Below, piece by piece: positions 1 through 50,163 of a stretch of 64,000 bases of DNA. Each line of letters begins with the position of its first letter. Position 1 is the stretch's first letter. Source of the DNA: an uncultured Thermoguttaceae bacterium (GTDB taxonomy: Bacteria > Planctomycetota > Planctomycetia > Pirellulales > Thermoguttaceae); NCBI GenBank assembly GCA_937951625.1, contig CALFBP010000033.1:1-64000 (forward strand), given 5' to 3'. Under the pieces are notes generated by a model that had not been told where the DNA came from, searched no databases, and saw nothing but the letters and a program-made list of their open reading frames with translations. The position numbers and the translations under genes were made by a program.

Positions 1-234
1 CGGCCTTCTTCTTTTCCTCAGCGGCCTTTTCCTCAGCCGCTTTCTTCTCGGCCTCGGCCTTCTTTGCCGCTTCCTCTTCGGCCTTCTTCTTTTCCTCAGC
101 GGCCTTTTCCTCAGCGGCCTTCTTCTCGGCCTCGGCCTTCATCGCGGCTTCCTCTTCAGCCTTCTTCTTTTCCTCAGCGGCCTTTTCGTCAGCGGCCTTT
201 TCCTCGGCGGCCTCCTTCTCGGCGTCGGCCTCCA
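1..234. repeat. 78-bp tandem repeat inside the lipoprotein gene
   Basis: Near-identical copies start at about 1, 79 and 157, a period of 78 bp or 26 codons; the third copy diverges in its second half. The unit encodes an Ala/Glu/Lys helix. It is in frame, so copy-number change would lengthen or shorten the helix without breaking the gene. The array may continue past the left edge. Confidence 0.75.
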
Positions 235-457
235 TTTCGGCCTTTTCCTCAGGCTTCTTTTCCTCAGCAGCCTCCTTCTCGGCCTCGGCTTTTTTGTCCG
301 CGTCCGGGGTTTTTTCTTCCTTGGGCGCCTCTTTCTTTTCAGCCACAGGAGGAGGCGGGACGGGAGTCAGTTTTTTCTTCTTAGGGGGCTCTTTTTGGCA
401 CCCACCCAAACACACTCCCACTGCCAACAACAGAACCAAGAACGCTAGCCGTTTCAT
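1..457 (-). CDS. Lys/Glu/Ala-repeat lipoprotein, 3' end cut by window edge
   Basis: The ATG at 457 is preceded by a strong Shine-Dalgarno (GGAGGTGA). The product begins MKRLAFLVLLLAVGVCLGGC, a lipoprotein signal peptide with lipobox LGGC, so Cys20 should be lipidated. A short Pro/Lys stretch follows (KKKKLTPVPPPP), then a long run made almost only of Ala, Glu and Lys to the window edge. Such runs form single alpha-helices or coiled coils, as in TolA-like envelope-spanning proteins. From about residue 75 the coding DNA is a 78-bp (26-residue) tandem repeat. No catalytic domain is visible and the C-terminus lies outside the window. The lipoprotein call is solid; an envelope spacer or tether role is inference. 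Confidence 0.8.
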   Translation of the reverse strand, partial: MKRLAFLVLLLAVGVCLGGCQKEPPKKKKLTPVPPPPVAEKKEAPKEEKTPDADKKAEAEKEAAEEKKPEEKAEMEADAEKEAAEEKAADEKAAEEKKKAEEEAAMKAEAEKKAAEEKAAEEKKKAEEEAAKKAEAEKKAAEEKAAEEKKKA

Positions 458-536
458 GCGTCACCTCCGATCGTGCTAAACTGGAAATTGCTGTTTGCGA
501 GCTGTCAACATACTGTCTGACCGATATCCAGTAAAG

Positions 537-597
537 GCTCCCCACGCCCGGGAATCGAACGATCCGTTGGATCGCCGCAACGCACAGATCGGGGAGC
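537..597. other. Intergenic inverted-repeat element
   Basis: GCTCCCC at 537-543 is exactly complementary to GGGGAGC at 591-597. Inside lies a second hairpin, GATCC-GTT-GGATC at 561-573. It sits between the stop of the propeller gene and the start of the lipoprotein gene, both read on the minus strand. There is no U-tract, so it is not a textbook intrinsic terminator. It could be an RNA structure in the lipoprotein leader or a processed end. Function unknown. Confidence 0.3.
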
Positions 598-736
598 GAC
601 TACCGTTCACTTGAGGGGTAGAAGTCCTTTCGCAGGGGCCTCGCCAGAGATTGAAAGACCGAGGGGTCGACGTCCATTGGGCGGCATCGCCGCACTCCAC
701 TTCTATCGTGTGGTCGATCACCGTGAGCGTTGGTTC

Positions 737-2653: not shown

Positions 2654-2882
2654 CGTCGCGTCTCTCAAAACAATTTGTAAAAGACGGATCGCTTTTGCCG
2701 GGTGGCTAACGCCTCGCGTGCGACTTGCACTTGTCATCTTTTATGGCTCTTAATTCCAAACGCGCGGGAGAGACGAGGCTTTCAGCAAAGAATCGCGGTG
2801 GCGTCTCGGGGTGTGCGTTATGTTGACCAGATCACGCGGGGTGCAAAAGGAAAACGGAAGGCTCGCCACCGTGACGCCCAAC

Positions 2883-4373
2883 TCAGCGGGCGAAATAGGC
2901 TTCGTTCCATCGCAAGTGGTTCTTGATCTGTTCGACCGTGGTCTCGGCGCCGATGCAAAGATACTCGATTCCGGCCATGTCGGCAAACATCTCCATCTGT
3001 TTGGCGCTGACGGCTTGGGAAAACCCAGTATGATGGGCCCCGCCGGCGTAAATCCACGCGGCCGCCGCCGTCTTAAGGTTGGGGCGCGGGACCCAGAGGG
3101 CCCGGGCGACGGGCAGGCGGGGCAACGGCCTTTCGGGCGGCACCACGTCGACCTCGTTGACGATCAGCCGGAAGCGGTGGCCCAAGTCGATGAGCGAGGC
3201 GTTCACCGCCGGGCCCGGCGCTACGTTGAACACCAGTCGCGCCGGATCGGCCTTGCCGCCAATGCTCAAGGGATGGATTTCCAGCGAAGGCTTATCCTGC
3301 GTCGTCGAGGGGCAAATCTCCAGCATGTGCGCGCCGAGCACCTTCATGCTGCCTGGAACCAGATGATACGTGTAGTCCTCCATGAATGAAGTGCCGCCGG
3401 GACGCCCGGCTGCCATGACCTTCATCGCCCGAACCAAAGCCGCCGTCTTCCAGTCACCCTCGGCGCCGAAGCCGTAGCCGTCGGCCATCAGCCGCTGGAC
3501 GGCCAGGCCGGGAAGCTGCTCCAAACCGTGGAGCTGCTCGAACGAGGTTGTGAAGGCCTTGAACCCGCCGTTGCCCAGGAAGGCCCTCAACCCTAATTCG
3601 ATCCTCGCCGCGGCCAGGAGACTTTGGTGGCCCGACACCCCTTCTGTTCCCGGCCCCAAGGCATAAGCTTCCCGATATTCTTGCACGAGCTTTTCGGCCT
3701 CGCCATCCGAAACCTGCTGGACGCAGGCCACGAGGTCGCCGACGCCGTAGCCGCTGACCGCATAGCCGAAGCGGAGCTGGGCCTCGACCTTGTCTCCCTC
3801 GGTGACAGCCACCTCGCGCATGTTGTCGCCGAAGCGGGCGATGCGGGCGCCTTGGGCGTCGGCCCAGGCCGTGGCGACGCGGGCCCATTGGCCAATCTCC
3901 TCCTGCACGTCGGCGTCCAGCCAATGGCCCACCACCACTGCCCGTTGCTTACCCAAGCGCGAACAAATAAACCCGAACTCGCGGTCGCCATGGGCGGCCT
4001 GGTTCAGGTTCATGAAATCCATGTCGATCGTGTCCCAGGGAATCTCCCGATTGAATTGCGTGTGGAGGTGAAGGAGGGGTTTTTTCAGGCTCGTGAGGCC
4101 GGCGATCCACATCTTGGCCGGCGAGAAGGTATGCATCCAACAAATCAGGCCGATGCAGTTGGCCGCGCCGTTGGCCTCGCGGCAGAGCTGGGCGATAGCG
4201 TCGGGCGAGGTGAGCACCGGCTTGTATACGATTTTGACGGGGATTTCCGCGGCATTGCTCAAGGCGGCGGCGATCTGCTGGGAGTGGGCCGCCACCTGCT
4301 GGAGCGTCGCCTCGCCATAAAGCTCCTGACTCCCCGTCGCTAACCATGCCTCGTAACATCCCCAATCGATCAT
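2883..4373 (-). CDS. araA: L-arabinose isomerase
   Basis: A 496-residue protein, close to the usual 500 for AraA. It begins [20 protein letters not shown], matching the family start with its FVTGSQ-like segment, and contains [48 protein letters not shown] and [25 protein letters not shown], which carry the metal-binding Glu and His positions of the family. It converts L-arabinose to L-ribulose in the cytoplasm. Its ATG overlaps the upstream TGA as ATGA, implying translational coupling to the unknown gene at 4370-5212. No ribulokinase or ribulose-5-phosphate epimerase gene is nearby, so the rest of the pathway is elsewhere or the enzyme serves another sugar. Identity is very likely. Confidence 0.95.
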
Positions 4374-5212
4374 TCCGATCCCCCTTTTTCGCGCCGATCT
4401 GAGGAAGACTTTGAATTGACGTAGAACCGCGCCAAATTGATCCCCCCGCGGACCTCCTCTTCCAGCAATTTCAGCCGTTGCTCCAAGCGCTCGATCCGGC
4501 GCTGGAGGACAAGCAGCATTTGCCCCTCGGATTCCTGAGTTTTGGGCCGGGGAACCGTGGGATAGCCCAAATGTCGGGCCAAGGCGGAAAATAAAAACAG
4601 CGGGTCCTTCTGCCGATTCGCCAGGGCGATCTTGCCTTCTTTCTCGCCGAAAAGGACCGGCTTGCCTGTCTCGCCCTTCAATTGCCGGTAGTGTTCGCTT
4701 CGCACGAAGATCAAGTCGGCAATGTCGATGATGCCCACCTGACGCCGCACCGTATCGATCCATTCGCGCCAGGCATCGTCATAGGCGGGATCGGCCGCGA
4801 CCGCCTCCAGGCCCCGGTCATATCCTAGCCGGTTCCGGCAGAGCGTCTCGAACTGGTAGAGGAAAAAGCCTTGCGGCGAGCCGCCTTTGGCGCGGTAGTC
4901 GGCCTCGCGCTCCAGCACCTCCAAGGCGATCCGCACGTCGAACTTGCCCTCGTCGCGTTCCGCTTCCTGCATGACGAAGGTTTGAAAGGGCGTGAAATAG
5001 TGGCTCAACCGCGCCATGGCTCGATGAAGCCGCCCGGTCAGACGAAGATCGGCGGCAAGATAATCGAGGGCCAAAGGAAGTTTGGTGGTCGAGAGCAATT
5101 CTTCGCGGATGGCGACGATCAGCTCCTGCGTCGACATGCCCTGCTGAATGCGTTCGCGGAGCGTGCGAAAGAAATAGGCCTGTTCGACGTACTCCTCGCG
5201 GTCCAACGCCAT
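4370..5212 (-). CDS. Conserved protein of unknown function ([16 protein letters not shown] family)
   Basis: A 280-residue soluble protein. The start at 5212 ([22 protein letters not shown]) is preferred: GGGAAGTGAAGG lies just upstream and the sequence matches my memory of how planctomycete homologues begin. An alternative ATG at 5248 would overlap the previous gene by 28 nt. It is rich in charged helices ([16 protein letters not shown], a Leu/Glu/Arg coiled-coil segment [19 protein letters not shown] near residues 230-260) with no signal peptide or membrane segment. The central part ([17 protein letters not shown] ... [34 protein letters not shown]) may be a binding domain. It lies 8 bp after the EF-hand gene and overlaps araA by 4 nt. 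I do not know its function. Confidence 0.8.
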
Positions 5213-5220
5213 GGCGGCCT

Positions 5221-6459
5221 TCACTTCCCGCTCGTCGCCTTCAGACATTCTTCCGGCGTGATGATCCCATCGCCGTTGAGGTCGTACTTCATGAACTCCT
5301 CGGCCAGGGCATTGGACCAGCCGCTCCGGGCATACTCAGCCATCGACACCTGTCCGTCCGCGTCGGCGTCTTTGCGAAGGAACCAGTCGGGCAGACCAGC
5401 GGGCAGGCGTTCGTGCGGCAAGAGGAAACGAATGGACCGCCGGGGCGCGGCCGCACCGCCGCTGGGAGCCGCGGCCACCATCGTGGTTGAGGGGCTGCTG
5501 GACGGTCCTGAACGCGAACGGCTGAAATTGGCCATTCTGGCGGCCAGTTCGTCGAGCGTAATCACGCCGTCTCGGTTGGTGTCGGCGTCGTGCCAGGTGC
5601 TCCTCATTTGCGACCACTCGTCCTTTTCGAGGACGTTGTTCTTGTTCTTGTCGTATTGGCGGAGCATGGCCTCCGCGTACTTTCGCACCCGATCGTCCAC
5701 GCGGTTCTCCGACGAGGTCGGTGACGAAACGGGTGCGGAAGACGAAGGGGCCGGAGGTGGCGACGCCGGCGGTGCTGGAACGGAAGCCGTGCTGGTCGAA
5801 TTACTCGCCCCGGCGGGGCTTGGCGTTGTACCCGAACCGGTGCCCGACGAAGTCACGGATTTGGCGGCCGACGGCGGACCGAAACCCGGAACCAGGGTAG
5901 CTGGAGCGCTTGGCCCGAAGCCGGGCACGAGGCTCGCTGCGGGCTTGCTGGCATCGCCGCCAGTTTTGCCCGCTCCCTCGGTCTGCCCAGAATCCCGGGA
6001 ACCACCGGACCGACGCTGCACCAAGGCGTCGCGCAACGCTTGGACGGAGATCGTTGAATTGGGATCCAGGCCTGCGCGACGGACCAGCCCTTCGTAAAAA
6101 GGCCGTCGCGCGCTACTTACTTCGTTTGGGGAGATCATTCCATCCCCGTTCGCGTCAAACTGTCGAATGAATGCGTCGTAGCGCTGCGAGCGATCCTCGG
6201 ACCCGCCATAGGATTGGGGCTCCCCTCCCCATCCCCGACGCATCGAGCGGAATCTTTCCCAGTCAGGGGGAGGACCGCCAGGCCCGCCAGGAAACATCCA
6301 CGGTGGTCCGCCGGGAAACATCCCCGGCCCGCCAGGAAACATTCCCGGTGGCCCCCCTGGGAACATACCCGGTCCACCCTCCGGCCCTTGACCTGCCGCA
6401 GAAGCGATCAGCACAACCAGGATCATCCCCGCAACACAGACTGGTGTCGCTCGAAGCAT
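5221..6459 (-). CDS. Secreted five-EF-hand protein with GMFPGG repeats
   Basis: 412 residues from the ATG at 6459, which has GGAGGG five bases upstream. A signal peptide (MLRATPVCVAGMILVVLIASAAG) is followed at residues 30-62 by imperfect repeats of GGPPGMFPGG. Five calcium-binding loops can be read: DANGDGMISPNE (102-113), DKNKNNVLEKDE (270-281, weak because Asn replaces the conserved Gly), DTNRDGVITLDE (293-304), DADADGQVSMAE (364-375) and DLNGDGIITPEE (393-404). Between them lie Pro/Ser/Thr-rich linkers, including a short tandem LVPGFGP repeat near 178-197. It is probably an exported calcium-binding protein, a class greatly expanded in planctomycetes. It heads the unit running into the unknown gene and araA. 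Partner unknown. Confidence 0.9.
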   Translation of the reverse strand: MLRATPVCVAGMILVVLIASAAGQGPEGGPGMFPGGPPGMFPGGPGMFPGGPPWMFPGGPGGPPPDWERFRSMRRGWGGEPQSYGGSEDRSQRYDAFIRQFDANGDGMISPNEVSSARRPFYEGLVRRAGLDPNSTISVQALRDALVQRRSGGSRDSGQTEGAGKTGGDASKPAASLVPGFGPSAPATLVPGFGPPSAAKSVTSSGTGSGTTPSPAGASNSTSTASVPAPPASPPPAPSSSAPVSSPTSSENRVDDRVRKYAEAMLRQYDKNKNNVLEKDEWSQMRSTWHDADTNRDGVITLDELAARMANFSRSRSGPSSSPSTTMVAAAPSGGAAAPRRSIRFLLPHERLPAGLPDWFLRKDADADGQVSMAEYARSGWSNALAEEFMKYDLNGDGIITPEECLKATSGK

Positions 6460-6737
6460 GGCGACCCTCCCGAAATGGTTTTCGCGGGCAATGGCTGCGC
6501 AACACAATGGAAAACCTTACGTCTATTATGTTAGCATTAAAGCATGGCTGGATGCCAGAGCCCCAAATTGCCGGAGTCGGGGGCAACACCAATTCTGGGG
6601 GGCGGAACTCTTGAAGCTTATCGGGGTTTACAAGTATGGGAACATCGTCTTCACGCCTGTCGTGTGCCCACGGAATTCGCCAGGGATTGAAAACGGAAAA
6701 TCCCCGGCACTGTCGACACGCAGGGAGTGAGAGACGG

Positions 6738-7475
6738 ATGTCTCGTTGTGTGCTGTCGGCCTGGGTTGGGCTGTTGGTATCTGTGGGATGGCTGGTCGGG
6801 GCTGAATCCTCCAAAGAAGGGCCTCCACCGCAGATCGGCACTTTCGCCCTGAAAGGCATGGCGGGGCCAGGGGCCCTCCAGGACGTCTGGGGCGACCTCT
6901 TGCGGTCCGAGGCCGTTCGTAAGGAGTTGAAAATCGATGCCCAACAGTTGGAAGCCTTGACCAGGATTTCGCAGAAGGCCGGCAAGGCCGCAAGACGCAA
7001 TTTCGAACAATTGCAAGAGTTACGAGATGCCCCACCGGAAGAGCGAAGTCGCAAATTTGCCGAAATCTCCAAGCTTGCTGCAACCCAGGCGAAGCAGACG
7101 CGAAAAGAAATTGAAGAGGTACTCCGACCCGAGCAAATGAAGCGACTCAAGCAACTGGCCGTGCAACTTCGGGGCGCGGCGGCGTTGGAGGACAAGGAAA
7201 TCCAGGAGGAACTAAAGCTCACTGAACAACAAAAAAACCAATTAAGTACGCTGCGTAAAAGCGTGACGCAGCAGATGCAGGAGTGGTGGCGGCCGGGAAA
7301 CCCAATCAAACCCGAAACGCGTCGGGAAAAGTTTCGGGCCCTGCTGAAAGACAGCGAAGCCAAGGCATTAGCCGTGCTGACGGATGCCCAAAAAGCGCAG
7401 TTCGAGCAGATGAAAGGCCCCCAATTCGACCTGAGCCACGTGCGGCCGCCACGGGGCGGCCCGCCCAAACCGTAG
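6738..7475 (+). CDS. Secreted Spy/LTxxQ-like helical protein
   Basis: 245 residues from the ATG at 6738, preceded by GGGAGTGAGAG. An N-terminal signal peptide ([23 protein letters not shown]) precedes an all-helical Lys/Glu/Gln-rich body. It holds repeated LxxxQ-type segments: [42 protein letters not shown] and [15 protein letters not shown], the pattern of periplasmic CpxP/Spy-like chaperones. The C-terminus is Pro/Gly-rich. It stands divergent from the EF-hand gene across a 278-bp gap and 52 bp before gspE. A periplasmic protein-binding role is inferred from the motif pattern only. The link to the secretion operon is by position. Confidence 0.7.
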
Positions 7476-7527
7476 AAACCGTACCGGCTGGAACGTTAAT
7501 CATTCCAGGGATCAGGAGGAAAACGCG

Positions 7528-9234
7528 ATGGAGGTTAGCGAAATCCTCCTCAAGAAGGGACTTCTAGACCAACGGCAACTGGACATGGTTCGCGCTGCGC
7601 AAACGGAGGGTGTTCGTTTGGATCAGGTGGCTGTGAATCTGGGACTGGTGACGGAAGAAGCGGCCCTTCGCGCGTTGGGTGAGGAGGTAGGGTTGGAGTT
7701 CGTGGATTTGGCCGAGACGCCGATCGACGTCAACCTTTTGCAGACCTTCCCGCCCAAGTTCATCCACCGCGAGGGCCTCTTCCCCATCCGCCAGCACAAC
7801 GGCACGCTCGTCGTGGCCACTAGCGACCCCTTCAATCTCTATCCGCTCGACGAGCTTGGGGCCGCCACCGGCAAGACCGTCATTCCCGTGCTGGCCAGCC
7901 GCAGTGAGATCGCTCGGCTGATCAAGACCCATTTGGGCGTGGGCAGCGAGACCATCGACGGCTTGATGGCCCAGGCCGCGGACGACCAGGTCCAATTGCT
8001 CGACCAGATCGAGAGCGACGGCTCCGAACTCTCGGAGATGGCCCAGGAGCCGTCGGTCATCAAGCTGGTCAACGAGATCCTTCGCGAGGCCATCGAGCTG
8101 AAGGCCAGCGACGTGCATATCGAGTCGGAGGCCTCGGGCCTGAGGATTCGTTACCGCATCGACGGTGTATTGCACCCGCAGCCTGTCCCGCCCGAAATCA
8201 ATCGCTTCCAAGCGGCGATCATCAGCCGACTGAAGATCATGGCCCGGCTCAACATCGCCGAGCGCCGCCTGCCGCAGGATGGACGCATCCAGTTGAAAGT
8301 CGCTGGACGCGAGGTCGACGTCCGCGTCTCGGTGATCCCCATGATCCACGGCGAGGGGATCGTGATGCGTTTGTTGGACAAAGGCGGCATGGAGTTCACC
8401 TTGGACAAGTTGGGCATGGAGCCTGACCTGTACGCCAAGTTCCGCCAATTGATCGAGTTGCCGCACGGGATCATCTTGGTGACGGGCCCGACGGGCTCTG
8501 GCAAATCGACCACGCTCTACAGCGCGCTGTTGGAAATCCGCAGCCCGGAGTTGAAGATCATCACCACCGAGGACCCGGTCGAATATCAACTCGAAGGCAT
8601 CAACCAGATTCAGGTCCACCCCAAGATCGGGCTGACGTTCGCCAATTCGCTCCGCAGCATCTTGCGGCACGACCCGGACATCATCCTCATCGGCGAAATC
8701 CGCGACTTGGAGACGGCCGAGAACGCGATCCAGGCCTCGCTGACCGGGCATTTGGTGTTCAGCACGCTGCACACCAACGACGCGGCCGGGGCGTACACCC
8801 GGTTGGCCGACATGGGCGTGGAACCATTCCTCGTTTCCAGCACGGTAGAAGGGGTGATGGCCCAGCGGCTGGTCCGCCAGTTGTGTCCGGCCTGCAAGGA
8901 ACCCTATCGCCCCAAACGCGAGGAACTGCCCGACGACTTCCCGATCCACGAACTAAAAGAGGGGGCGGTGATTTACCGGGCGACGGGCTGCCGCGCCTGC
9001 CGCAACGTGGGTTATAAGGGCCGCTTGGGAATCTTTGAACTCCTCGTCACCACCGAGACCATCCGCCAGTTGGCCCACGAACGCAAAAGCACTTGGAACA
9101 TCATGCAAGCGGCCATCCGCGAGGGCATGCGCACGCTCCGCCAAGACGGCTGGGTGAAGGTGCTCAGCGGCCGCACCAGCGTCGAGGAAGTGGTCAAGGC
9201 CACCAAGGGAAACGACCTCAGGCTAGGGAAGTGA
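7528..9234 (+). CDS. gspE: Type II secretion / type IV pilus assembly ATPase (GspE/PilB)
   Basis: 568 residues; ATG at 7528 with AGGAGG upstream. It powers pseudopilus assembly from the cytoplasmic face. N-terminal MshEN-type segment (about 1-150), then ASDVHIESE near 193, Walker [10 protein letters not shown] at 320-328 (Lys326), Asp box TTEDPVEYQ, Walker [10 protein letters not shown] at 385-393, and the His box [15 protein letters not shown] zinc site is formed by CPAC (453-456) and CRAC (488-491), as in canonical GspE. All catalytic motifs are intact. It is the first gene of the pseudopilin operon; gspF follows after about 106 bp. Confidence 0.97.
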
Positions 9235-9340
9235 CGCGCGATGAATCCCCCGGCCCTTGCAGCCCCCACCGCGATGCCGGATTTCTCGCCTGAACGCCGC
9301 GCGTATTCTTGATGGACTCCGCAAGCTGAGTGTCGTGCCT

Positions 9341-10543
9341 ATGGACGAGTTCGCCTACATCGCCCGAGACGCCTCCGGCCAGCGCGTGACCGGCACCATC
9401 GCCGCGGCCAGTCGGCGCGAGGCGCTGGAGATCATTGCCGGCCGGTCCCTGTTCCCGGTCGAGGTCGCCAGCAAGTCGCCCACGCAGCAGTTCAAGCGTC
9501 TGCGAAGGCTGTCGGGACAAGTCTTGGCGGTCCTGTATGGCCAGCTTTCCGACCTGCTGCGGAGCGGGGTGCCGTTGTTGCGGGCGTTGGATGTGTTGCG
9601 GAAGCAGAGCACCCGGCCCGCCTTGACCAACGTCTTGGCCGAGGTCCATCACGACGTGGAGCAGGGGGCTTCGCTGGGCGAGGCCATGGCCCGGTTCCCC
9701 AACATCTTCGGCGAAATGGCCATCAGCATGGTCCGTGCTGGCAGCGAGGGCGGTTTTTTGGAAGACGCCCTCGCCCGCGTCGCCGAGTTCACCGAAACCC
9801 AGGACGACATCCGCAAGCGGACCATGGGCGCGCTGGCCTATCCCGCCTTCCTGGCCGTGGTGGGCACGATCGTGGTCATCGTGCTGATGGTGTTTTTCGT
9901 GCCTAAGTTCGAGGGGCTGTTTCAGAACCTCCGCGAGCGGGGCGAGTTGCCGGTGATGACCGAATTGGTGCTGGGCACGAGCCAGTTTTTTCAACGATGG
10001 ATCGTGCTGGTGCTCGCCGCCTTCGTCGCGGCGGGCATCGCCTTGCGGCAATGGATGCAAACAGAATCAGGCCGGATGTGGCGGGACCGCCTGAAGATTC
10101 GCGTGCCTTTGGCGGGCAAGGTGTTCCTGAATCTGGCCGTGGCCCGGTTCTGCCGCGTGCTGGGAACCCTGCTCCGCAACGGGGTGCCGATCCTCCGCGC
10201 CTTGGAGATCGCCGCGGATGCGACGGGCAACCGCGTCCTTGGCGCCGCCATTGTCACCGCGGCAAAAGATATTTCAGGGGGCCAGCGGCTGGCTGGTCCC
10301 TTGGCGGCCAGCGGACATTTCCCGCCCACCGTCGTCGAAATGATCTCCGTCGCCGAGGAATCCAGCACCCTGGAGAAGGTACTCCTCGAGATCGCCGAGT
10401 CGTTGGAACGCCGCACCTGGCGGCAGCTCGATCTGGTGGTCCGCCTGATCGAGCCGATCATGCTCCTGGTGTTGGCCATGGTGGTCCTAGTGTTGGTCGT
10501 CGCACTCTTGCTGCCGGTGATTAAGATGAGCATGACGGTATAG
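9341..10543 (+). CDS. gspF: Type II secretion inner-membrane platform protein GspF
   Basis: 400 residues from the ATG at 9341; the family start is MDEFAYIARDASGQRVTGTI, so the earlier in-frame codon at 9257 was rejected. Two GspF domains are visible: LYGQLSDLLRSGVPLLRALDVL ... EMAISMVRAGSEGGFLEDAL near residues 65-150, and the repeat FCRVLGTLLRNGVPILRALEIA ... EMISVAEESSTLEKVL near 268-350. Membrane helices follow each domain (FLAVVGTIVVIVLMVFFVP, IVLVLAAFVAAGIAL, IEPIMLLVLAMVVLVLVVALLLPV). It anchors GspE and transmits its motion to the pseudopilus. Length is normal. Confidence 0.96.
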   Translation: MDEFAYIARDASGQRVTGTIAAASRREALEIIAGRSLFPVEVASKSPTQQFKRLRRLSGQVLAVLYGQLSDLLRSGVPLLRALDVLRKQSTRPALTNVLAEVHHDVEQGASLGEAMARFPNIFGEMAISMVRAGSEGGFLEDALARVAEFTETQDDIRKRTMGALAYPAFLAVVGTIVVIVLMVFFVPKFEGLFQNLRERGELPVMTELVLGTSQFFQRWIVLVLAAFVAAGIALRQWMQTESGRMWRDRLKIRVPLAGKVFLNLAVARFCRVLGTLLRNGVPILRALEIAADATGNRVLGAAIVTAAKDISGGQRLAGPLAASGHFPPTVVEMISVAEESSTLEKVLLEIAESLERRTWRQLDLVVRLIEPIMLLVLAMVVLVLVVALLLPVIKMSMTV

Positions 10544-42267: not shown

Positions 42268-43458
42268 TTAAAACTCCGATCCGGTTGCCGACCGGGAAGC
42301 GACCGGTTGGGTTGGCGATGGATGAGGCCGCTCGGCCAATTGCCCGGCCGAGGTTGTCGGGAGCGGATCGACGGCCCGGCCGTCTAACTGACGCCAGAGT
42401 TGATCGAACGCGCGTCGCAGGATGGCGTCGGCCTTCAGAAGTTGGGCGGTTTTTGTACAGCCGTGGGACACGGTGCTGTGGTCGCGGCCGCCAAAATAGG
42501 CGCCGATCTGCTCAAAGCTCTTGCCGGTCAGCGTGCGCGCAAGATACATAGCTACATCCCGGGCCGTGACCACGGCGCGACGCCGGCAGCCGCTGCGAAG
42601 GTCCGTCAAGCGGACGGAAAAATGCCGCGCCACGGCCCGCGCGATCTCGCGGAGCGAGGGCTCATTCCTCTTGCGTTCGGCGAGCAATTCCGCCACGCGC
42701 CGGTCCAATGATTTGCTGGGTTCGATCGATCCCGACATCCTTAAGTAGCCAATGGCCGCCCAAATTGCCGACAGCGGCTCAGGCAGTCCGTCAACGAGGG
42801 CTTGGGCCGCTTCTTGCGAAAGATCAAGTCCGCCCAGGACGGCGAACTTGCGAGCGGCCGCTAAGCGGACCTCCCGGCCCGGCGGCGCTACCCGCACCAC
42901 CAAGCCGCTGATAAGCCGCGCCTTCAGCGCCGGCAACAAGCCAGCAATCTCGCCCGGTGCCTCGCGGGCAGTGACAACCACTTGGCTTCCCGCGCTTAAC
43001 AGGGCGTCGATCGTGTGTAAAAGCTCGTCCTGAGCCGCAGGTCGGTCAGCCAGGGCGTCTAGGTCGTCAATGGCCAGCAATTCCGGTCGTCGATATCGGG
43101 CCCGGAACTCGTCCGTGGTTCGGGTCTCCGATGCCTCGGTCCACTGCCGGGCGAAATCCAAGGCCATCGCGTGGATCGCACTGCGAGGCCCGCGGATCCT
43201 CCGCCAAGTATCAGCCATACCAGCCGCAAGGTGGGTTTTCCCTACACCGGGGGGACCGTGAAGAACCAGCGGGTTATAGAACGGCGGAAACTGACCGTTG
43301 AATACGGACTTCACAGCCTCCACGATTAGGAAGTTCTCTGGTCCGGCGAGGAATGTTTCGGACCATCCTGCCCTAAATGGATGCGGTGAACTACCAGCAG
43401 GGCTGCTTTGGCCAAACGCATGGCCCGAGATGGGGATTTCAACCACCGTGTCGGTCAC
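42268..43458 (-). CDS. dnaA: Replication initiator DnaA lacking domain I
   Basis: 396 residues from a GTG at 43458; an in-frame stop lies directly upstream, so the reading frame cannot be longer. Domain III: Walker A GPPGVGKTHL (68-77), Walker B LLAIDDLDAL near 127-136, and the ADP/ATP sensor segment LKARLISGLVVRVAPPGREVRLA. Domain IV carries ARDVAMYLARTLTGKSFEQIGAYFGGRDHSTVSHGCTKT, the DNA-binding signature. The first 35 residues do not resemble domain I, which normally binds DnaB and DiaA and adds about 80-100 residues. A 45-residue Pro/Ser-rich tail follows domain IV. It heads the replication block. Confidence 0.94.
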   Translation of the reverse strand: MTDTVVEIPISGHAFGQSSPAGSSPHPFRAGWSETFLAGPENFLIVEAVKSVFNGQFPPFYNPLVLHGPPGVGKTHLAAGMADTWRRIRGPRSAIHAMALDFARQWTEASETRTTDEFRARYRRPELLAIDDLDALADRPAAQDELLHTIDALLSAGSQVVVTAREAPGEIAGLLPALKARLISGLVVRVAPPGREVRLAAARKFAVLGGLDLSQEAAQALVDGLPEPLSAIWAAIGYLRMSGSIEPSKSLDRRVAELLAERKRNEPSLREIARAVARHFSVRLTDLRSGCRRRAVVTARDVAMYLARTLTGKSFEQIGAYFGGRDHSTVSHGCTKTAQLLKADAILRRAFDQLWRQLDGRAVDPLPTTSAGQLAERPHPSPTQPVASRSATGSEF

Positions 43459-43844: not shown

Positions 43845-45341
43845 CTACAAGTTGCGTGCGGGCGGCTCGCGACGGGGCGCGATCAAGGTCTGAGCATGAC
43901 CTGCGGTCGCCGCCCGAGCCAAGGCCGTGAGCATTCCCGAGAACACCCATCGGTGCATGGGATAGAGGGCATACCAATAAGCCAAGCCGAGCAAACCCAG
44001 AGGATCGAAGATGGCGGTTTGCCGGATCGTCGAACCTTGGGGGGCTGGCGTAACCTCGAACTCGAGCCAGGCGCGGCCGGGAAGTTTCATTTCGGCTTGA
44101 AGTCGCAGCAAGCGGCCTGGCTCGAAGGCCTCGACGCGCCAGAAGTCGAGGGCCTCGCCCACGCGGAGATCGACCGGGTCGCGGCGTCCGCGACGCAGTC
44201 CCACCCCGCCCAATAGGCGATCTACGGCGCCGCGGATTTGCCACAGCATGTTGCCGGAGTACCAACCGGTCTGGCCGCCGATCCGTTGGATGGGGCCGAA
44301 GGCCACCTCGGGCGGGACCGGGACCGTGGCCGTCCGCGAGTCGACGATTCGTGTGCCGAAACGCACGCCTCCCCAACGCGGCTTGAAACCAGTCGACGAC
44401 AAGGCGTCCGACCAACGCGTCGCCGCGCACTCCTGATCTTCATACATCAAGGCCCGCCGGATCGCTTCCTCTAGGCCCCGCGGCCGAACCGGAAAAATCT
44501 GCAAGGCGTCGGGCGATTCGACGACCGTCGGATACCGCAGTCCCTCGACCAATTTCCGACCGATCCTCGCGTAAACCGGTGTCACCAGGCCCAACCAGAG
44601 GCTGGAAAGGTAGGGGGTGAGCACGGGCACGGGGATCATCCAGCGCCTCAGTCCGCGTTGCCGGGCGTATTCCCGCATGATGTCACCATAACAAACGCGG
44701 TCAGGCCCGCCGATCTCGAAGATGCGGCTCTCGCCTGGCGGCAAATCCAAGGCGAGCAACAAATACTCGAGCACGTCCTCCACGGCGATGGGTTGGGCCG
44801 GGGTCGCTACCCATCGCGGGCAGATCATGATGGGCAGCCGTTCCACCAAGGCCCGCACCAGCTCGAATGACAAACTGCCCGAACCGATGATGATCGACGC
44901 GCGAAATTCGATGACTTGCGCGCCCGAAGTGCGGAGTAACTGACCTGTCTCGTGCCGGGTGCGGAGGTGGTCGGAAAGCCCGTACTTCGGATTGCCCAGC
45001 CCGCCCAAGTAGATGATCCGGCCGACGCCCGCTTCTTTGGCCGCGGTGGCGAAATGCATTGCCGCTTGCTGTTCTTCGCGTTGCCAATGGCCCGGGCTGG
45101 CCATGGAATGGATCAGGAAATAGGCGGTATCCACGCCCGCAAAGGCCGGAGCCAACGTCTCCGGCGCCAAGGCGTCGCCTAGCACTACCTCCGTGTTCGG
45201 CCCTACGCGGTTTCGCAGGGTTTCCGGCCGCCGGGCCAGACACCGCAGCCTCACTCCGCGGCGCTCCAACAGGGGCAACAACCGTCCGCCGATGTAGCCC
45301 GTAGCCCCCGTCAGCAGCACCAAAGGCGGCTGGTTTGACAT
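43845..45341 (-). CDS. SDR-family NAD(P)-binding protein fused to DUF2867
   Basis: 498 residues from the ATG at 45341. The N-terminal 300 residues are an extended SDR with the dinucleotide motif VLLTGATGYIGGRLLPLLERRG and AYFLIHSMAS ... IIYLGGLGNPKYGLSDHLRTRHETGQLLRTSGAQVIEFRASIIIGSGSLS; no YxxxK is obvious, as in atypical SDRs. The last 160 residues (GWYSGNMLWQIRGAVDRLLGGVGLRRGRRDPVDLRVGEALDFWRVEAFEPGRLLRLQAEMKLPGRAWLEFEV ... PMHRWVFSGML) are a DUF2867 lipid-binding-like domain. It is the last gene of the unit that begins with folE, 51 bp after the photolyase. Substrate unknown; the DUF2867 part suggests a hydrophobic ligand. Confidence 0.88.
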   Translation of the reverse strand: MSNQPPLVLLTGATGYIGGRLLPLLERRGVRLRCLARRPETLRNRVGPNTEVVLGDALAPETLAPAFAGVDTAYFLIHSMASPGHWQREEQQAAMHFATAAKEAGVGRIIYLGGLGNPKYGLSDHLRTRHETGQLLRTSGAQVIEFRASIIIGSGSLSFELVRALVERLPIMICPRWVATPAQPIAVEDVLEYLLLALDLPPGESRIFEIGGPDRVCYGDIMREYARQRGLRRWMIPVPVLTPYLSSLWLGLVTPVYARIGRKLVEGLRYPTVVESPDALQIFPVRPRGLEEAIRRALMYEDQECAATRWSDALSSTGFKPRWGGVRFGTRIVDSRTATVPVPPEVAFGPIQRIGGQTGWYSGNMLWQIRGAVDRLLGGVGLRRGRRDPVDLRVGEALDFWRVEAFEPGRLLRLQAEMKLPGRAWLEFEVTPAPQGSTIRQTAIFDPLGLLGLAYWYALYPMHRWVFSGMLTALARAATAGHAQTLIAPRREPPARNL

Positions 45342-45392
45342 TTGCAAGGACGCTCCCTGGATGTTCCAGCAAGGCAATTTTTTGTAAAAGCG

Positions 45393-46913
45393 TCAGCCGA
45401 ACAAGGTCTTTTCGGCCCGGCCGCAGCGCCAGCCCAACGCCTCTTCCGAATAGCGTCGCAAGTATTGCGTAACCCTCACCTTTCGGGCCGTGTTTTCGGA
45501 ACTCATGTAACGGATCGTACCAAAGATCGGTCGCTCCGGCCCCCACGGACGGTCGTAGCGTCCGAGAATCCAGAAGATGCCGGAGTAAGAATTCGGGTCC
45601 TGCCCGTCCAACGCGTAACGATTGTTCAATTCGACCATGATCTCCAAGGCTTCTTCTGGCCGCGACGTCCACTCCAAAATCTTTTTGCCCCAGAGCATTC
45701 GCAAATAGTTATGAAGGCGGCCTTCGGAAACCAATTGCCGCTGGGCCGCGTTCCATAACGGATCGTGCGTCTGAGCCGAAGCGAACTGTTCGAGGCTGTA
45801 AACGTAAGACCGCGGGTCTTTGGCGTGTTTTGCTAACGTCGCCTTGGCCCAAGGGGGCAGCGAGTCGTACTCGGCATAGTCTGGCCGATGCGAGCAGGTG
45901 TTGAATCCCAGTTCCCGCCACGTCAGCAGTTGATCCAAAAAGGCCTCGGCCGCTTCGCTCATGCCCCACCAGCCCTGTCGGACCCCTGAGGCCTTCTGCC
46001 CGAGTCGTGCGGGAGTCCATGATTGCTGAGCAACAATGTCGAAAAAGACCTGATGCGTGGAAATATGACCGAAGTGCAAATAGGGCGAAAGCCCACTGGT
46101 GGCGTCGGACTCGGGCTGGTTCCGCAGCTCGGGATACGAGGCCAAGGCGTCGGTCAAAAACGCTTGCCATCGCGTTTCGGCCGCCGAGGAGCCGCCTTGC
46201 ATCGAAACGGCTGGCACACGGTGGTCGATCGCCAGTTTCGCCAACGACCCGGGTTCGCCCGACAACAGCTCGACCGAGGCCCGCGGCCAGCGCCGCGCGA
46301 TCGCTGTCGGCAGCGAATCGGCTGGGGGCAACTCCACGTGAGCGAAGGGGTCCGCTTGCGGCGTGTCGAAAAGGTGATCGCGGAGCACGGCTTGCAGAAA
46401 CCTTCGGAAAGCGAAGGCCGTGGGAAACGCCTCATTGGCCGCCCGCATGGGAACCAATCCTACACCGTCGACCGCCTCCAACCGGACTGCGCAGCGATCG
46501 CCATTCGCGACGATGCCGGGCGCTGTGGGGTGCTCATCCGTCACCACCACACATGCTTGTTGGCAGATAGCCGCGAAAAACGCCTCATTTTCACCGGGCT
46601 GGCTTTCGACGTAGGGATAATAGAGCACCGGCCGACCGTTCAACCGCCTCGCCGTGTCCGCCATTCCTTCTAAAACAAAGCGGTGAGTCCGCTCTGTGTC
46701 CCAGCGTCCGCCGCAGGTGAGCACTTCGATGATCCAAAGCGGCTTTTTCAACTCCTGCGCCCAGTCGATCGCCCGATCCAGGGCGAAGTTCCACCGCACG
46801 CGGCGTGCGGCGGTCATCCAATAAACGACTGCCCGGCCGGCTCCGTGAATTGGCTCGTCGCGAACGACACGAACCCGCAAGGCTGGCACGCTGCCTAGGC
46901 TTTCGACAACCAT
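45393..46913 (-). CDS. phr: Class II CPD photolyase
   Basis: 506 residues. N-terminal antenna domain starts VVYWMTAARRVRWNFALDRAIDWAQELKKPLWIIEV. The FAD domain has SGLSPYLHFGHISTHQVFFDIV, WWGMSEAAEAFLDQLLTWRELGFN, YSLEQFASAQTHDPLWNAAQRQLVSEGRLHNYLRMLWGKKILEWT, NNRYALDGQDPNSYSGIFWILGRYDRPWGPERPIFGTIRYMSSEN, all typical of class II enzymes. It repairs cyclobutane pyrimidine dimers using light and FADH-. It follows the flavin reductase gene by 82 bp and precedes the SDR by 51 bp. The reductase and pterin genes upstream could supply its cofactors; this is inferred. Confidence 0.95.
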   Translation of the reverse strand: MVVESLGSVPALRVRVVRDEPIHGAGRAVVYWMTAARRVRWNFALDRAIDWAQELKKPLWIIEVLTCGGRWDTERTHRFVLEGMADTARRLNGRPVLYYPYVESQPGENEAFFAAICQQACVVVTDEHPTAPGIVANGDRCAVRLEAVDGVGLVPMRAANEAFPTAFAFRRFLQAVLRDHLFDTPQADPFAHVELPPADSLPTAIARRWPRASVELLSGEPGSLAKLAIDHRVPAVSMQGGSSAAETRWQAFLTDALASYPELRNQPESDATSGLSPYLHFGHISTHQVFFDIVAQQSWTPARLGQKASGVRQGWWGMSEAAEAFLDQLLTWRELGFNTCSHRPDYAEYDSLPPWAKATLAKHAKDPRSYVYSLEQFASAQTHDPLWNAAQRQLVSEGRLHNYLRMLWGKKILEWTSRPEEALEIMVELNNRYALDGQDPNSYSGIFWILGRYDRPWGPERPIFGTIRYMSSENTARKVRVTQYLRRYSEEALGWRCGRAEKTLFG

Positions 46914-46995
46914 GATGAAAACCGCCTTGACTTCGATTCCACGGGCAGTGGCTTAATCGGCGAGGCGAGAGCCTGGGGAACCAGGTCTCACCGCC

Positions 46996-47601
46996 TCACA
47001 TGCCGTAAGGAAAGTTTTTCAAATCCACCACGCCGCTCGCCCGCACCGCACCCAGCGCCTTGGCATATTCCACCAAAAGCCGCAGGGAGTACTCGATCCG
47101 CTGCCGCAAGCCCGCATCATGCTCGTCCGCGGGCAAATCGCCCTGGAGCATGCGGCCCACGTTGCGGATGATCACGTGGTCGGGGATGTAGCAAATGCGA
47201 GTATTCTTGTAGCTGCTGGTCCGCAATTCCGCCACGGGATAGGCCCCGCCAAGCGATGCCGAGACCGTCACGATCAAACCTGGCTTATGGGCGAGGATCT
47301 CCCCGCCACACAGCAAAAAGAAGTTCTTCAAACCGGCCGGGACCATGCCTGACCACTCCGGCGAGACGATCACGAACCCGTCCGAAGTCTTCAGTTCCGC
47401 GGCGATGGGAGACCATCGCGATTTCCAACCGGGGTCGTTCTCCCAAACGCCTTCATCCCAAAGCGGCAAGGGATTGTTGGCAAGCGAGAGTACGTAGATT
47501 TCCTCCACGCCAATCTGCCGAAGCGTTTTTTCCAAGTACCGCGCGACCCGAGCCGACTCGGACTGCCGACGATGACTGCCTGCGATGATCGAGATTTTCA
47601 T
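46996..47601 (-). CDS. NADPH-dependent FMN reductase-family flavoprotein
   Basis: 201 residues from the ATG at 47601, which has GAAGAG upstream. The flavodoxin-like fold begins KISIIAGSHRRQSESARVARYLEKTL, with the phosphate loop GSHRRQSESAR, and continues with GFVIVSPEWSGMVPAGLKNFFLLCGGEILAHKPGLIVTVSASLGGAYPVAELR, where SPEWSG replaces the usual PEYNG. Such enzymes reduce FMN or act on quinones with NAD(P)H. It lies 35 bp after queD and 82 bp before the photolyase, in the same direction. Confidence 0.9.
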   Translation of the reverse strand: MKISIIAGSHRRQSESARVARYLEKTLRQIGVEEIYVLSLANNPLPLWDEGVWENDPGWKSRWSPIAAELKTSDGFVIVSPEWSGMVPAGLKNFFLLCGGEILAHKPGLIVTVSASLGGAYPVAELRTSSYKNTRICYIPDHVIIRNVGRMLQGDLPADEHDAGLRQRIEYSLRLLVEYAKALGAVRASGVVDLKNFPYGM

Positions 47602-47636
47602 GTTGCTTCTCTTCAGTGGCCCTCGACAATTGAGCA

Positions 47637-48158
47637 TCAAACCGAGGTCGGGGAGCGACGGCCCCGCCTAGAACGAGTCCAGTCCCCGGCCGCACCACTC
47701 TCCGTTCGCCCGTTGTGACGCCGATTGTACGCCATCCAATCTCGACGGGTGTAGATCACGGTGCTGCTGTCGGTCTCCTGAACCTCCAGGCGATCCAACT
47801 TGAAGCCCATGTCCGTGATTTCGCCAAAGAGCTGATGGGCCAAGTTTTCCACGGAAGTCGGCGCGTCGAACCGTTTCAATTTCAAGTCATCGCCGGTCCG
47901 CTGTATGTATTCGCTGAGGGCGGCGTACAAAGGATCGCCCACGTGGATCAGCAAGCTGTGATCGTACTCGCGTTTCAAGAACGGTTCGATCTTGGCATCG
48001 AAATCGCCGAACAACGTAGAAATCGATTGCCTCGGCTTCCGCGTCACTCGGAAAAAGCATCGCAATTCATACCGGTGTCCGTGGAGATTGCGACACTTGT
48101 CCTGAAGCTCCTCATTGCGATGCGCTGCATAAAACTTGTAACGTTTCTGAATGAGCAT
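47637..48158 (-). CDS. queD: 6-carboxytetrahydropterin synthase / PTPS-family protein
   Basis: 173 residues; GAGAGG six bases before the ATG. The zinc ligands are AAH near residue 13 and HGH near 28, and the catalytic Cys lies in CRNLHGHRY, a CxxxHGH motif that points to QueD rather than to the tetrahydrobiopterin-type enzyme (CxxxxxHGH). The catalytic Asp/His side reads YDHSLLIHVGDPL, and SVENLAHQLFGEI and LEVQETDSSTVIY close the fold. QueD makes 6-carboxytetrahydropterin for queuosine or preQ0. The last 25 residues are a basic tail outside the fold. folE lies 30 bp upstream, supplying its substrate; queE and queC are not in the window. Confidence 0.9.
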   Translation of the reverse strand: MLIQKRYKFYAAHRNEELQDKCRNLHGHRYELRCFFRVTRKPRQSISTLFGDFDAKIEPFLKREYDHSLLIHVGDPLYAALSEYIQRTGDDLKLKRFDAPTSVENLAHQLFGEITDMGFKLDRLEVQETDSSTVIYTRRDWMAYNRRHNGRTESGAAGDWTRSRRGRRSPTSV

Positions 48159-48188
48159 GAGCGAACCTCTCGGGCAAATTCTTAGAAC

Positions 48189-48848
48189 TCAGCCTTGCGA
48201 TTTGCTGAAAATCAAAGCCATCACCTCGGCTCGACTAGCAGGATTGGTTCGGAAGGTGCCGCGTAGCGCACTGGTCACGGTGCGGCTGCCCGGCTTGCGA
48301 ATCCCACGAATCGACATGCACGAATGCTCGGCCTCGATGACCACGGCCACGCCGGAGGTGTCCAATTCGCGCTCGATCAGATCAGCGATCATTTGAGTCA
48401 TCCGCTCTTGCACCTGCGGTCGCAGGGCCATTTCTTCCACAACGCGGGCGATTTTGCTTAAACCGGTCACGCGGCCCCGCGGCAAATAGGCGACATGCGC
48501 CACGCCACTGAACGGCAGCAAGTGATGCTCGCACATGCTCGTGAACGGAATGTCCCGCACCAGCACCAGCTCGTCGTAATCCTCGGGAAAAGTCACTTTC
48601 AGGTGCCGCGCCGGGTCCAGACGCAGGCCAGCGAACATCTCCTTGTACATTCGCGCCACGCGGCGCGGGGTATCGCGGAGGCCGGGACGATCCGGATCCT
48701 CGCCGACCGCACGCAGAATGGTCCGTACCGCGCCCTCGATCGCCTCGAGATCGACCTTTTCATGATCGATCTCGCTCTTGCCGCACGCCTCCTTCAAGCT
48801 CTGGCCATTGATTCGGTTGATAGCAAGGCTTTTCGTCCCGTTGATCAT
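48189..48848 (-). CDS. folE: GTP cyclohydrolase I
   Basis: 219 residues from the ATG at 48848, with TAGGA nine bases upstream; a GTG at 48899 would add a leader without known counterpart. It contains [61 protein letters not shown], and [33 protein letters not shown], carrying the zinc ligands Cys, His and Cys and the substrate pocket. It converts GTP to dihydroneopterin triphosphate, the entry to folate, queuosine and other pterins. First gene of the folE-queD-flavin reductase-photolyase-SDR run. Confidence 0.97.
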
Positions 48849-49287
48849 CGCGAAGTTTCCTAGTCCAGTGGTTGTCGTTTTGGTGGTTTCGTAATCCACG
48901 TCGAATGCCGAGTCGTTCGATGTAGATCGCCGAACAGGGCCCGTCGATTGGGGAGTTTGGAATCAAACGTACCGCCCTTAGTTCGCGTTCTCGGCCGCTT
49001 TGGATTCAGCCCCGGCTCCTGCCAGGTGTTCAACAGATGATCTGAAGTTAAACTTTAGGAGTGACGACAACGACAACGCACGCTTTTTTCCGTCGTTTCC
49101 GGGCATCGAGGGCCCTCACCCTAACCCTCTCCCAGAGGGAGAGGGAACTTTGGGGATAGGCGCTAAGTTTTGCTTCGGCGCTCGGGCTGAATCGGTCGCT
49201 AATCAGGAACCATCCAACCCTCGGGACGCCGAGAAAGGCAGCGACGAGGTAAGACGTAAACTTGTAAGAACATAGGGAGAACGCCGC
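48849..49287. other. Divergent gap with a hairpin repeat, no gene
   Basis: About 440 bp between folE and the gene at 49288. Apart from the repeat at 49113-49145 it contains no open frame with coding character. Promoters for both flanking genes must lie here, but I see no convincing hexamer pair. Confidence 0.5.
49113..49145. repeat. CCCTCACCC-type intergenic palindromic repeat
   Basis: CCCTCACCCTAA is followed by CCCTCTCCC, an AGA loop and the exact complement GGGAGAGGG (stem 49125-49133 with 49137-49145). I recognise this as a dispersed intergenic element seen in many GC-rich bacterial genomes, often in several copies. It may act as a hairpin in transcripts. Only one copy is in this window. 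Confidence 0.7.
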
Positions 49288-50163
49288 ATGACAACCGACC
49301 TTCGGTTCATTTCCGCTCTGGCCGTCATTTGCTCGCTGAGCTTGGTTTGTTCCCTCCCCGACGTTCAGGCCGACGAGGGTTTGTTCGCGCAGGAAAACCT
49401 CGTGGCCTGGTGCATCGTGCCCTTCGATGCCAAAAAGCGCGATCCCGAGGAACGGGCCCAGATGCTCGTCCGCCTGGGAATCCGAAAACTGGCCTATGAT
49501 TGGCGGGACGAGCACGTGCCGAGTTTCGACGCGGAATGCGAGGCCATGAAGCGGCACGGGATCACGATCGAGGCCTGGTGGTTTCCCGCCGCCTTGAATC
49601 CCACGGCGCAGAAAATCCTCGACGTGCTTCAACGGCATAAGATTCCGGCCCAACTTTGGGTGAGCATCGGCGATCCTGCGCCGAACGCTTCCCAAGAGGA
49701 AAAGGTGGCGGCTGCGGCGGCCATCATTCGTCCGATCGCCGAAGCGGCCGCAAGGATCGGCTCCAAGGTCGCCCTTTACAACCATGGCGGATGGTTCGGC
49801 GAGCCTGATAACCAATTGGCCATCATCCAGCGCCTCGGACTAAAGAACGTGGGAATCGTTTACAACTTCCACCATGGGCACGCCCACATCGACCAGTTTC
49901 CCGAGGTATTCAGGCGGATGCAGCCCCATTTGCTGGCCGTAAACTTGAACGGCATGGTCCGCCACGGGGACACGATCGGCAAGAAGATTTTGCCCCTGGG
50001 CCAGGGCGATCAGGAACTCGCCATGATGAAGGTCATCGCCCAAAGCGGCTGGCGCGGACCGATCGGAATCCTGGATCACCGCCCGGAAACGGACTCCGAA
50101 ATCACCCTGCGAGAGAATCTCGAAGGGCTCTCGCGGCTGCGAAAACAAATCGAATCGCGGTAG
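49288..50163 (+). CDS. Secreted sugar phosphate isomerase/epimerase-like TIM-barrel protein
   Basis: 291 residues; GGGAG lies upstream of the ATG. A signal peptide (MTTDLRFISALAVICSLSLVCSLPDVQA) precedes an AP-endonuclease-2-type barrel: QMLVRLGIRKLAYDWRDEHVPSFDAECEAMKRHGI, AEAAARIGSKVALYNHGGWFGEPDNQLAIIQRL, VGIVYNFHHGHAHIDQF, HLLAVNLNGM and IGILDHRPETDSEITLRENLEGLSRL. The His, Glu and Asp positions usually binding metal are largely present. Relatives are inositol or ketose epimerases and are often exported in planctomycetes. The substrate is unknown; the gene stands alone. Confidence 0.85.
   Translation: MTTDLRFISALAVICSLSLVCSLPDVQADEGLFAQENLVAWCIVPFDAKKRDPEERAQMLVRLGIRKLAYDWRDEHVPSFDAECEAMKRHGITIEAWWFPAALNPTAQKILDVLQRHKIPAQLWVSIGDPAPNASQEEKVAAAAAIIRPIAEAAARIGSKVALYNHGGWFGEPDNQLAIIQRLGLKNVGIVYNFHHGHAHIDQFPEVFRRMQPHLLAVNLNGMVRHGDTIGKKILPLGQGDQELAMMKVIAQSGWRGPIGILDHRPETDSEITLRENLEGLSRLRKQIESR

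Follow-up and report, generated by a model that had tools for sequence, protein, structure and literature searches.

On balance, we favor reading five genes on one strand of a contig from an uncultured Thermoguttaceae bacterium (Planctomycetota) as a light/UV (photo-oxidative) defense operon with a pterin branch of its own; the cluster is real and probably functional. The window (the whole stretch of DNA analyzed, 64,000 nucleotides) comes from contig C33 of a 4.59-Mb assembly (genome G000). In it, folE, encoding a GTP cyclohydrolase I paralogue, is followed by genes for a COG0720-type pterin synthase, an NADPH-dependent FMN-reductase-like protein, a class II cyclobutane pyrimidine dimer (CPD) photolyase (phr), and a short-chain dehydrogenase/reductase (SDR)-type NAD-binding domain fused to DUF2867 (SDR-DUF2867), all on the minus strand with intergenic gaps of 30, 35, 82, and 51 bp (Table 1). 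An earlier sequence-only reading had described this run, and its coordinates and gene families were borne out, except that it had called the second gene queD. The class II identity of the photolyase follows from a near-full-length phmmer match (2.9e-75, residues 23 to 489) to the Methanosarcina mazei class II photolyase 2xry; the C-terminal (FAD) part is strongly conserved and the N-terminal (antenna) part weakly.

The pterin synthase, which we call PTPS-L together with its window-type orthologues, scores 49.6 bits against the QueD model TIGR03367, under the cut-off of 89.25, and two orthologues score 44.7 and 49.2 bits. A queC match was found at 0 of 87 PTPS-L loci (72 of them of ≥8 kb) versus 15 of 20 QueD loci, two of which had supplied the queC queries. 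Because of the sub-cut-off score and the absence of a queuosine gene context, we regard PTPS-L as a separate subfamily and not as QueD, which corrects the annotation that the window gene would be expected to receive. The genome holds a second PTPS homologue on contig C90, only 26% identical to the window protein, that reaches 89.8 bits against the same cut-off; the gene adjoining it matches QueC at 70.5 bits, under that model's cut-off of 150. The orthologues of PTPS-L are 48 to 70% identical to the window protein. We kept 80 named loci of 135 confirmed relatives; 79 carry planctomycete titles, and the remaining one is "bacterium isolate Co_bin.157." Loci counted by name and by genome overlap in part (L103 with G073, L143 with G249), so that the queC set and the set used below for paired and unpaired genes are not fully independent.

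PTPS-L is a plausible enzyme of the PTPS/QueD fold, judging from its AlphaFold2 model (mean pLDDT, 87.9), whose best PDB matches have this fold and include E. coli QueD, Acinetobacter QueD2, and human PTPS. Across 45 PTPS-L sequences, H13, C22, H26, G27, H28, D66-H67, and E128 are invariant; these residues, apart from G27, we take to be catalytic. PTPS-L thus shares with QueD/PTPS-I the fold, these conserved residues, and the CxxxHGH motif (CRNLHGH, residues 22 to 28), but it differs in failing TIGR03367, in having no QueC found beside it, in having its own FolE partner, and in co-occurring with a QueD above the cut-off in this genome; the stretch from D66-H67 to PTSVENLA is also longer than in the C90 QueD. 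Two other subfamilies were considered and rejected: PTPS-II (biopterin) needs CxxxxxHGH, whereas the spacing in PTPS-L is three residues, and PTPS-III (folate) needs ExxHGH, whereas the residue after the cysteine is R, F, S, or A in seven aligned PTPS-L sequences. In the available text of PMC5041015, CxxxHGH is the motif of the PTPS-I/QueD type, as the sequence-only reading had it; the COG0720 subfamilies run up to PTPS-VI, with V lacking a clear function, and FolE clusters with PTPS-I in other bacteria.

The motif, those FolE–PTPS-I clusters, the two QueD structures among the top matches, and the genomes named below without a detected separate QueD speak for queuosine genes (FolE-QueD) that lie beside a photolyase by chance. 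We consider this very improbable, given the C90 QueD above the cut-off with its QueC-family neighbor and the window PTPS below it, the lack of any queC match at the 87 PTPS-L loci, and the presence of a separate FolE copy in the genome. The queuosine reading, offered earlier as the conservative alternative for folE-queD, is therefore disfavored.

That other FolE locus lies on contig C2 (G000:C2:22473-23003). Among 80 relatives (the genome itself included), 4 of the 7 genomes with PTPS-L have two separate FolE loci (one copy being partial, in G006), versus 2 of the 73 others (G022 and G047); G043 was not counted, as its two matches are abutting pieces. In a FolE tree of 79 rows, 59 PTPS-paired copies and one copy from G022 form a clade with 100/100 support, although the bootstrap had yet to converge completely and a single row sits on a very long branch. 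The window FolE falls inside this clade, and the C2 FolE falls outside it. (Local alignments of <150 residues for FolE or <131 for PTPS were left out of the trees.) The G022 copy adjoins the same FMN reductase and SDR-DUF2867, and its stretch of 11.4 kb gave no PTPS-L match and no photolyase match. The folE-PTPS pair is the conserved unit of the locus: 56 of the 80 named loci, contig-truncated ones included, have folE immediately upstream of PTPS-L. At five loci without folE (L132, L138, L157, L158, and L159), PTPS-L is preceded by conserved glycosyltransferase-like and HD-hydrolase-like frames (named by eye), perhaps a pterin-glycoside branch.

Genes for light and UV defense recur near PTPS-L. 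At the 48 of 80 loci with flanks of ≥8 kb (32 were left out for short flanks), we found within 5 kb fasciclin (16 loci), a CarH-like B12 regulator (10), Fpg (7), Dps (6), a sigma factor (6), class II photolyase (5), the photolyase-related family DPRP (PF04244; 5), and UvdE (5). Among 39 control loci (19 other folE and 20 QueD loci, 13 of them with flanks of <8 kb), none of these markers occurred except one sigma factor; L167 was not used as a folE control, since it groups within the PTPS-paired clade. When a flank of 7 kb was used, any photolyase lay within 5 kb at 11 of 53 PTPS-L loci versus 0 of 36 controls (P = 0.002), and 13 such cases were found over all 80 loci. The association follows the pair with folE: any of nine light markers was present at 20 of 38 well-flanked paired loci versus 1 of 10 unpaired loci (29 of 56 versus 2 of 17 without the flank rule), and a photolyase at 8 of 38 versus 0 of 10. 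The clearest example is L223 (G235), where fasciclin, phr, DPRP, AhpC, folE, and PTPS lie on one strand and are followed by a sigma factor and CarH; L224 (G249) shows the same gene set in mirror image. At L048 (G050:C40, positions 8144 to 10291), a PTPS-L gene without folE stands directly upstream of a PF04244 gene on the same strand, with a gene for an FAD-dependent oxidoreductase diverging on the other side. As some relatives keep the folE-PTPS pair among light-defense genes, its product is probably a pterin that helps the cell to cope with light.

Co-occurrence was examined in 248 genomes of the class that are ≥85% complete, 39 of which have PTPS-L. DPRP was present in 31 of these 39 versus 70 of the 209 others (P = 2e-7; at the genus level, 15 of 20 versus 48 of 114, P = 0.008). 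For class II phr, the figures are 31 of 39 versus 123 of 209 (P = 0.02; at the genus level, 17 of 20 versus 64 of 114, P = 0.02). Either gene was found in 34 of 39 versus 142 of 209 genomes (P = 0.02) and both together in 28 of 39 versus 51 of 209. At least 11 of the 39 genomes, from 7 genera, have a photolyase gene about 5 kb or less from PTPS-L; a rough chance estimate for two photolyase genes per about 6.5 Mb predicts far fewer than one such genome.

Several points weigh against a light-defense operon. With flank-matched controls (≥8 kb on both sides), the proximity of any photolyase is only modestly significant (8 of 48 loci versus 0 of 26, Fisher P = 0.04), the controls come from nearer relatives than the test loci, and the P values overstate independence because the genomes are related. 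The marker families other than class II phr and DPRP were picked from the same neighborhoods, so that the wider counts, such as that of photolyase, UvdE, or Fpg within 5 kb (16 of 48 versus 0 of 26, P = 0.0006), are descriptive and partly circular. PTPS-L genes without folE mostly lack light markers, and most PTPS-L genomes (28 of 39, among the matches listed) have no photolyase within about 5 kb. Five PTPS-L genomes have neither class II phr nor DPRP; two of these have a class I photolyase, and in the other three of the 39 (G154, G266, and G287) no photolyase was found, class I included, in a class I search that covered nine genomes. The PTPS-L of G154 and G266 is the form without folE. A separate QueD was not detected in G050, G071, and G079 (three of the seven PTPS-L genomes among the 80 relatives), where a QueD role of PTPS-L is possible; for comparison, 5 of the 73 relatives without PTPS-L have no PTPS match at all. 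No CarH-like regulator matched at E ≤ 1e-25 in the window genome with one planctomycete CarH-like query, and its presence, detected with the same query in 153 of the 248 class genomes, is not associated with PTPS-L (24 of 39 versus 129 of 209).

The full five-gene order is a further such point. The sequence-only reading had named its conservation in planctomycetes as a check, and when this was run, the order was found in 0 of 35 photolyase neighborhoods of relatives; the folE-PTPS pair, by contrast, is conserved. Class II photolyase is present in 39 of the 80 relatives and PTPS-L in 7; of the 38 other relatives with the photolyase, 35 contributed neighborhoods, several of them cut by contig ends, and the low-identity or partial matches of G048, G067, and G068 were left out. 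Among the 35, folE-PTPS occurs in three (G006, G071, and G073), the FMN reductase in two (G006 and G031), and SDR-DUF2867, within the fetched stretch, in two (G059 and G069). A search of 79 other relatives gave close homologues of the FMN-reductase-like protein in 5, including a partial one. In several other genomes, SDR-DUF2867 has as its neighbor a photolyase gene of class II or of the Fe-S type.

An accidental grouping near replication-origin genes, without shared function, would account for the missing order, and the block does abut dnaA, dnaN, dciA, and gyrB. In a different family, moreover, the folE–PTPS-L pair begins 4.4 kb into a chromosome record that starts with dnaA (L234, G289:C1, positions 1 to 5428). 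Chance grouping is nevertheless unlikely in our view, since parts of the block recur elsewhere: folE-PTPS near phr in G071 and G073, a shortened folE-PTPS-FMN reductase set before phr in G006, FMN reductase with phr in G031, folE with FMN reductase and SDR in G022, and phr with SDR as neighbors in G253 and G297. These sub-blocks thus recur in different orders. In the G006 case (L051, G006:C501, positions 1766 to 4130), folE, PTPS, and the FMN reductase gene stand in the window order as partial matches whose frames are shortened, and the photolyase frame that follows them is intact; this is either a decaying operon or an assembly fault. At L212 (G028:C35, positions 5595 to 7717), two diverged class II photolyase fragments lie directly upstream of SDR-DUF2867, which suggests a decayed phr-SDR pair.

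If the five genes form a light-defense operon, its pterin branch is one set apart from QueD and from the FolE on contig C2. By family, FolE would convert GTP to dihydroneopterin triphosphate, and PTPS-L would convert this to a 6-substituted tetrahydropterin. Repair of UV dimers falls to the photolyase, and the FMN-reductase-like protein and SDR-DUF2867 may be redox partners. The reduced pterin would most likely serve general photodefense as a reductant, quencher, or cofactor, and a share of it may end as a photolyase chromophore; general photodefense is our first choice for its use, and the photolyase antenna ranks second.

Under the antenna alternative, the class II photolyase, and perhaps DPRP too, would use the folE-PTPS pterin as antenna chromophore in place of 8-hydroxy-5-deazaflavin (8-HDF). 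As all 248 genomes have CofH matches and almost all of these stay below the cut-off, a match is informative only if it exceeds the cut-off; the sub-cut-off matches are presumably menaquinone (futalosine) enzymes. CofH was above the cut-off in 2 of the 248 genomes, neither of them among the 39 with PTPS-L, and the best match in the window genome reaches 333 bits versus the cut-off of 374. Judged from the CofH search, the window genome is probably unable to make F0 and hence 8-HDF, the customary antenna of class II enzymes; this leaves room for a pterin antenna without showing one. Class II phr is about 5 kb or less from PTPS-L in at least 8 of the 39 genomes (one of these cases being a paralogue with 36% identity), DPRP is equally close in at least 8, and in G050 a folE-less PTPS-L is directly beside DPRP. 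On the other side, class II phr is present in 123 of the 209 genomes that lack PTPS-L, and G287, in which no photolyase was found, has a CarH gene 1.4 kb from its PTPS-L. Folate could serve as the antenna instead, the chromophore could be taken up, and the case against F0 is drawn from CofH, CofG not having been searched. DPRP is, we assume, kin to the Fe-S photolyases, and dimethyl-ribityllumazine needs no FolE. Fe-S photolyases use dimethyl-ribityllumazine, to go by the title of a work cited in PMC8305020. A pterin antenna for this photolyase is possible, and as an account of the pair we hold it to be the less probable one. The wider suggestion of the sequence-only reading, that the upstream genes might supply cofactors to the photolyase, also fits the CofH result but faces the same 123 genomes and the three PTPS-L genomes in which no photolyase was found. 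Still more doubtful is the general form of the idea, in which Planctomycetes would have a dedicated pterin pathway, made up of a FolE paralogue and a COG0720 subfamily that we assign to none of the known ones, whose product would be a non-folate photolyase antenna that replaces 8-HDF in class II enzymes. In the open-license literature, we found nothing that links DUF2867 or 6-carboxytetrahydropterin synthase with photolyase; a search for photolyase in connection with pterin operons led to a paper about radiation resistance in Arthrospira.

Table 1. Features of the five-gene block and its flanks in the window
Feature	Position	Strand	Evidence or remark
folE (GTP cyclohydrolase I paralogue)	48189-48848	-	PF01227, 254 bits; TIGR00063, 230.3 bits (above the cut-off of 181.6)
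PTPS-L, COG0720-type pterin synthase	47637-48158	-	PF01242, 72 bits; protein P0002
NADPH-dependent FMN-reductase-like gene	46996-47601	-	PF03358, 88.8 bits; phmmer to YieF/chromate reductase
Class II CPD photolyase (phr)	45393-46913	-	TIGR00591 phr2, 365.8 bits (under the cut-off of 550); phmmer to 2xry
SDR-type NAD-binding domain fused to DUF2867	43845-45341	-	PF13460 and PF11066 (129 bits)
Candidate promoter region, divergent intergenic upstream of folE	48849-49287		Next gene 49288-50163 (+)
Short frame CRLPETKGKTLEQIERELVGR*, possible gene remnant between SDR-DUF2867 and dnaA	43689-43754	-	

GC content at third codon positions is 0.70 to 0.77 in the five genes and 0.69 to 0.80 in four measured neighbors. 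An alternative TTG start of SDR-DUF2867 is possible at 45377. Downstream of this gene, after 386 bp and on the same strand, come a dnaA-like gene, dnaN, dciA, and a gyrB-like gene (the last named by eye). The dnaA-like gene (42268-43458, minus strand) encodes 396 amino acids and scores 222 bits versus the DnaA cut-off of 344; its ATPase domain begins near residue 34, so that the usual N-terminal domains seem to be absent. The short frame in between resembles what we take to be the C-terminal tail of a sugar-porter major facilitator superfamily (MFS) protein.

The five genes may be cotranscribed and light induced. A consensus scan gave two promoter-like sites versus a shuffled mean of 1.5, none of them in the intergenic region upstream of folE, and six terminator-like sites versus a shuffled mean of 7.4, which is not above chance. 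A palindromic CCCTCTCCC/GGGAGAGGG-type repeat lies upstream of folE, at about 49113 to 49145. Control by CarH was rejected for the window genome, as no CarH-like gene was found there at E ≤ 1e-25 with the one query used and the presence of CarH does not track that of PTPS-L, and another regulator is possible, such as a sigma factor of the type found near 6 of the 48 PTPS-L loci. CarH-like genes do lie near the folE-PTPS pair in several relatives. The earlier remark that the grouping recalls light-induced operons of other bacteria therefore stands in part: the gene set resembles the Pseudomonas and Rhodobacter sets described below, as far as the available texts of those sources go, and CarH occurs near the pair in some relatives, but was not found in the window genome.

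The individual families are known, and it is their combination with this PTPS subfamily that is new. The locus makes the question of which pterin is made, and for what, directly testable, and it bears on the choice of antenna by class II photolyases in bacteria that probably cannot make F0. Compared with the M. mazei class II enzyme 2xry, the window photolyase falls below the TIGR00591 cut-off and its genome has no CofH above the cut-off.

In Pseudomonas, the light regulon of class II LitR (PplR/PmlR) comprises phrB, an SDR gene, ufaM, cryB, and folM-folE-folX, and light induces the latter set about two- to threefold, as part of a response in which phrB rises about thirtyfold, according to the available text of PMC9758184. 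The likeness to the window locus lies in the photolyase, the SDR, and the FolE pterin genes, with a fatty-acid synthase there too. As far as that text goes, the pterin is tailored by FolX and FolM in Pseudomonas and by a COG0720 enzyme in the window locus, the LitR/CarH regulator is known there whereas none was found in the window genome, and the pterin genes there form a separate, more weakly induced transcription unit. FolE-type genes are induced alongside photolyases in two genera, the trigger being light in Pseudomonas and singlet oxygen in Rhodobacter. The planctomycete pair would add a third example, in which the tailoring enzyme differs and a FolE duplicate stands apart from the other FolE and from the queuosine genes.

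FolE2 belongs to a cyclohydrolase family other than FolE, and the Rhodobacter phrA presumably encodes a photolyase of a class other than class II. The Rhodobacter RpoE-ChrR singlet-oxygen regulon contains folE2, phrA, the SDR gene RSP_1087, the fasciclin gene RSP_1409, and cfaS, and the available text of PMC7074977 mentions no PTPS. Neither this source nor PMC9758184 states a use for the pterin in the text available. On the same partial view of the regulon, the genes that it has in common with the planctomycete loci, namely, folE, photolyase, SDR, fasciclin, and CFA-like genes, are those that recur near PTPS-L.

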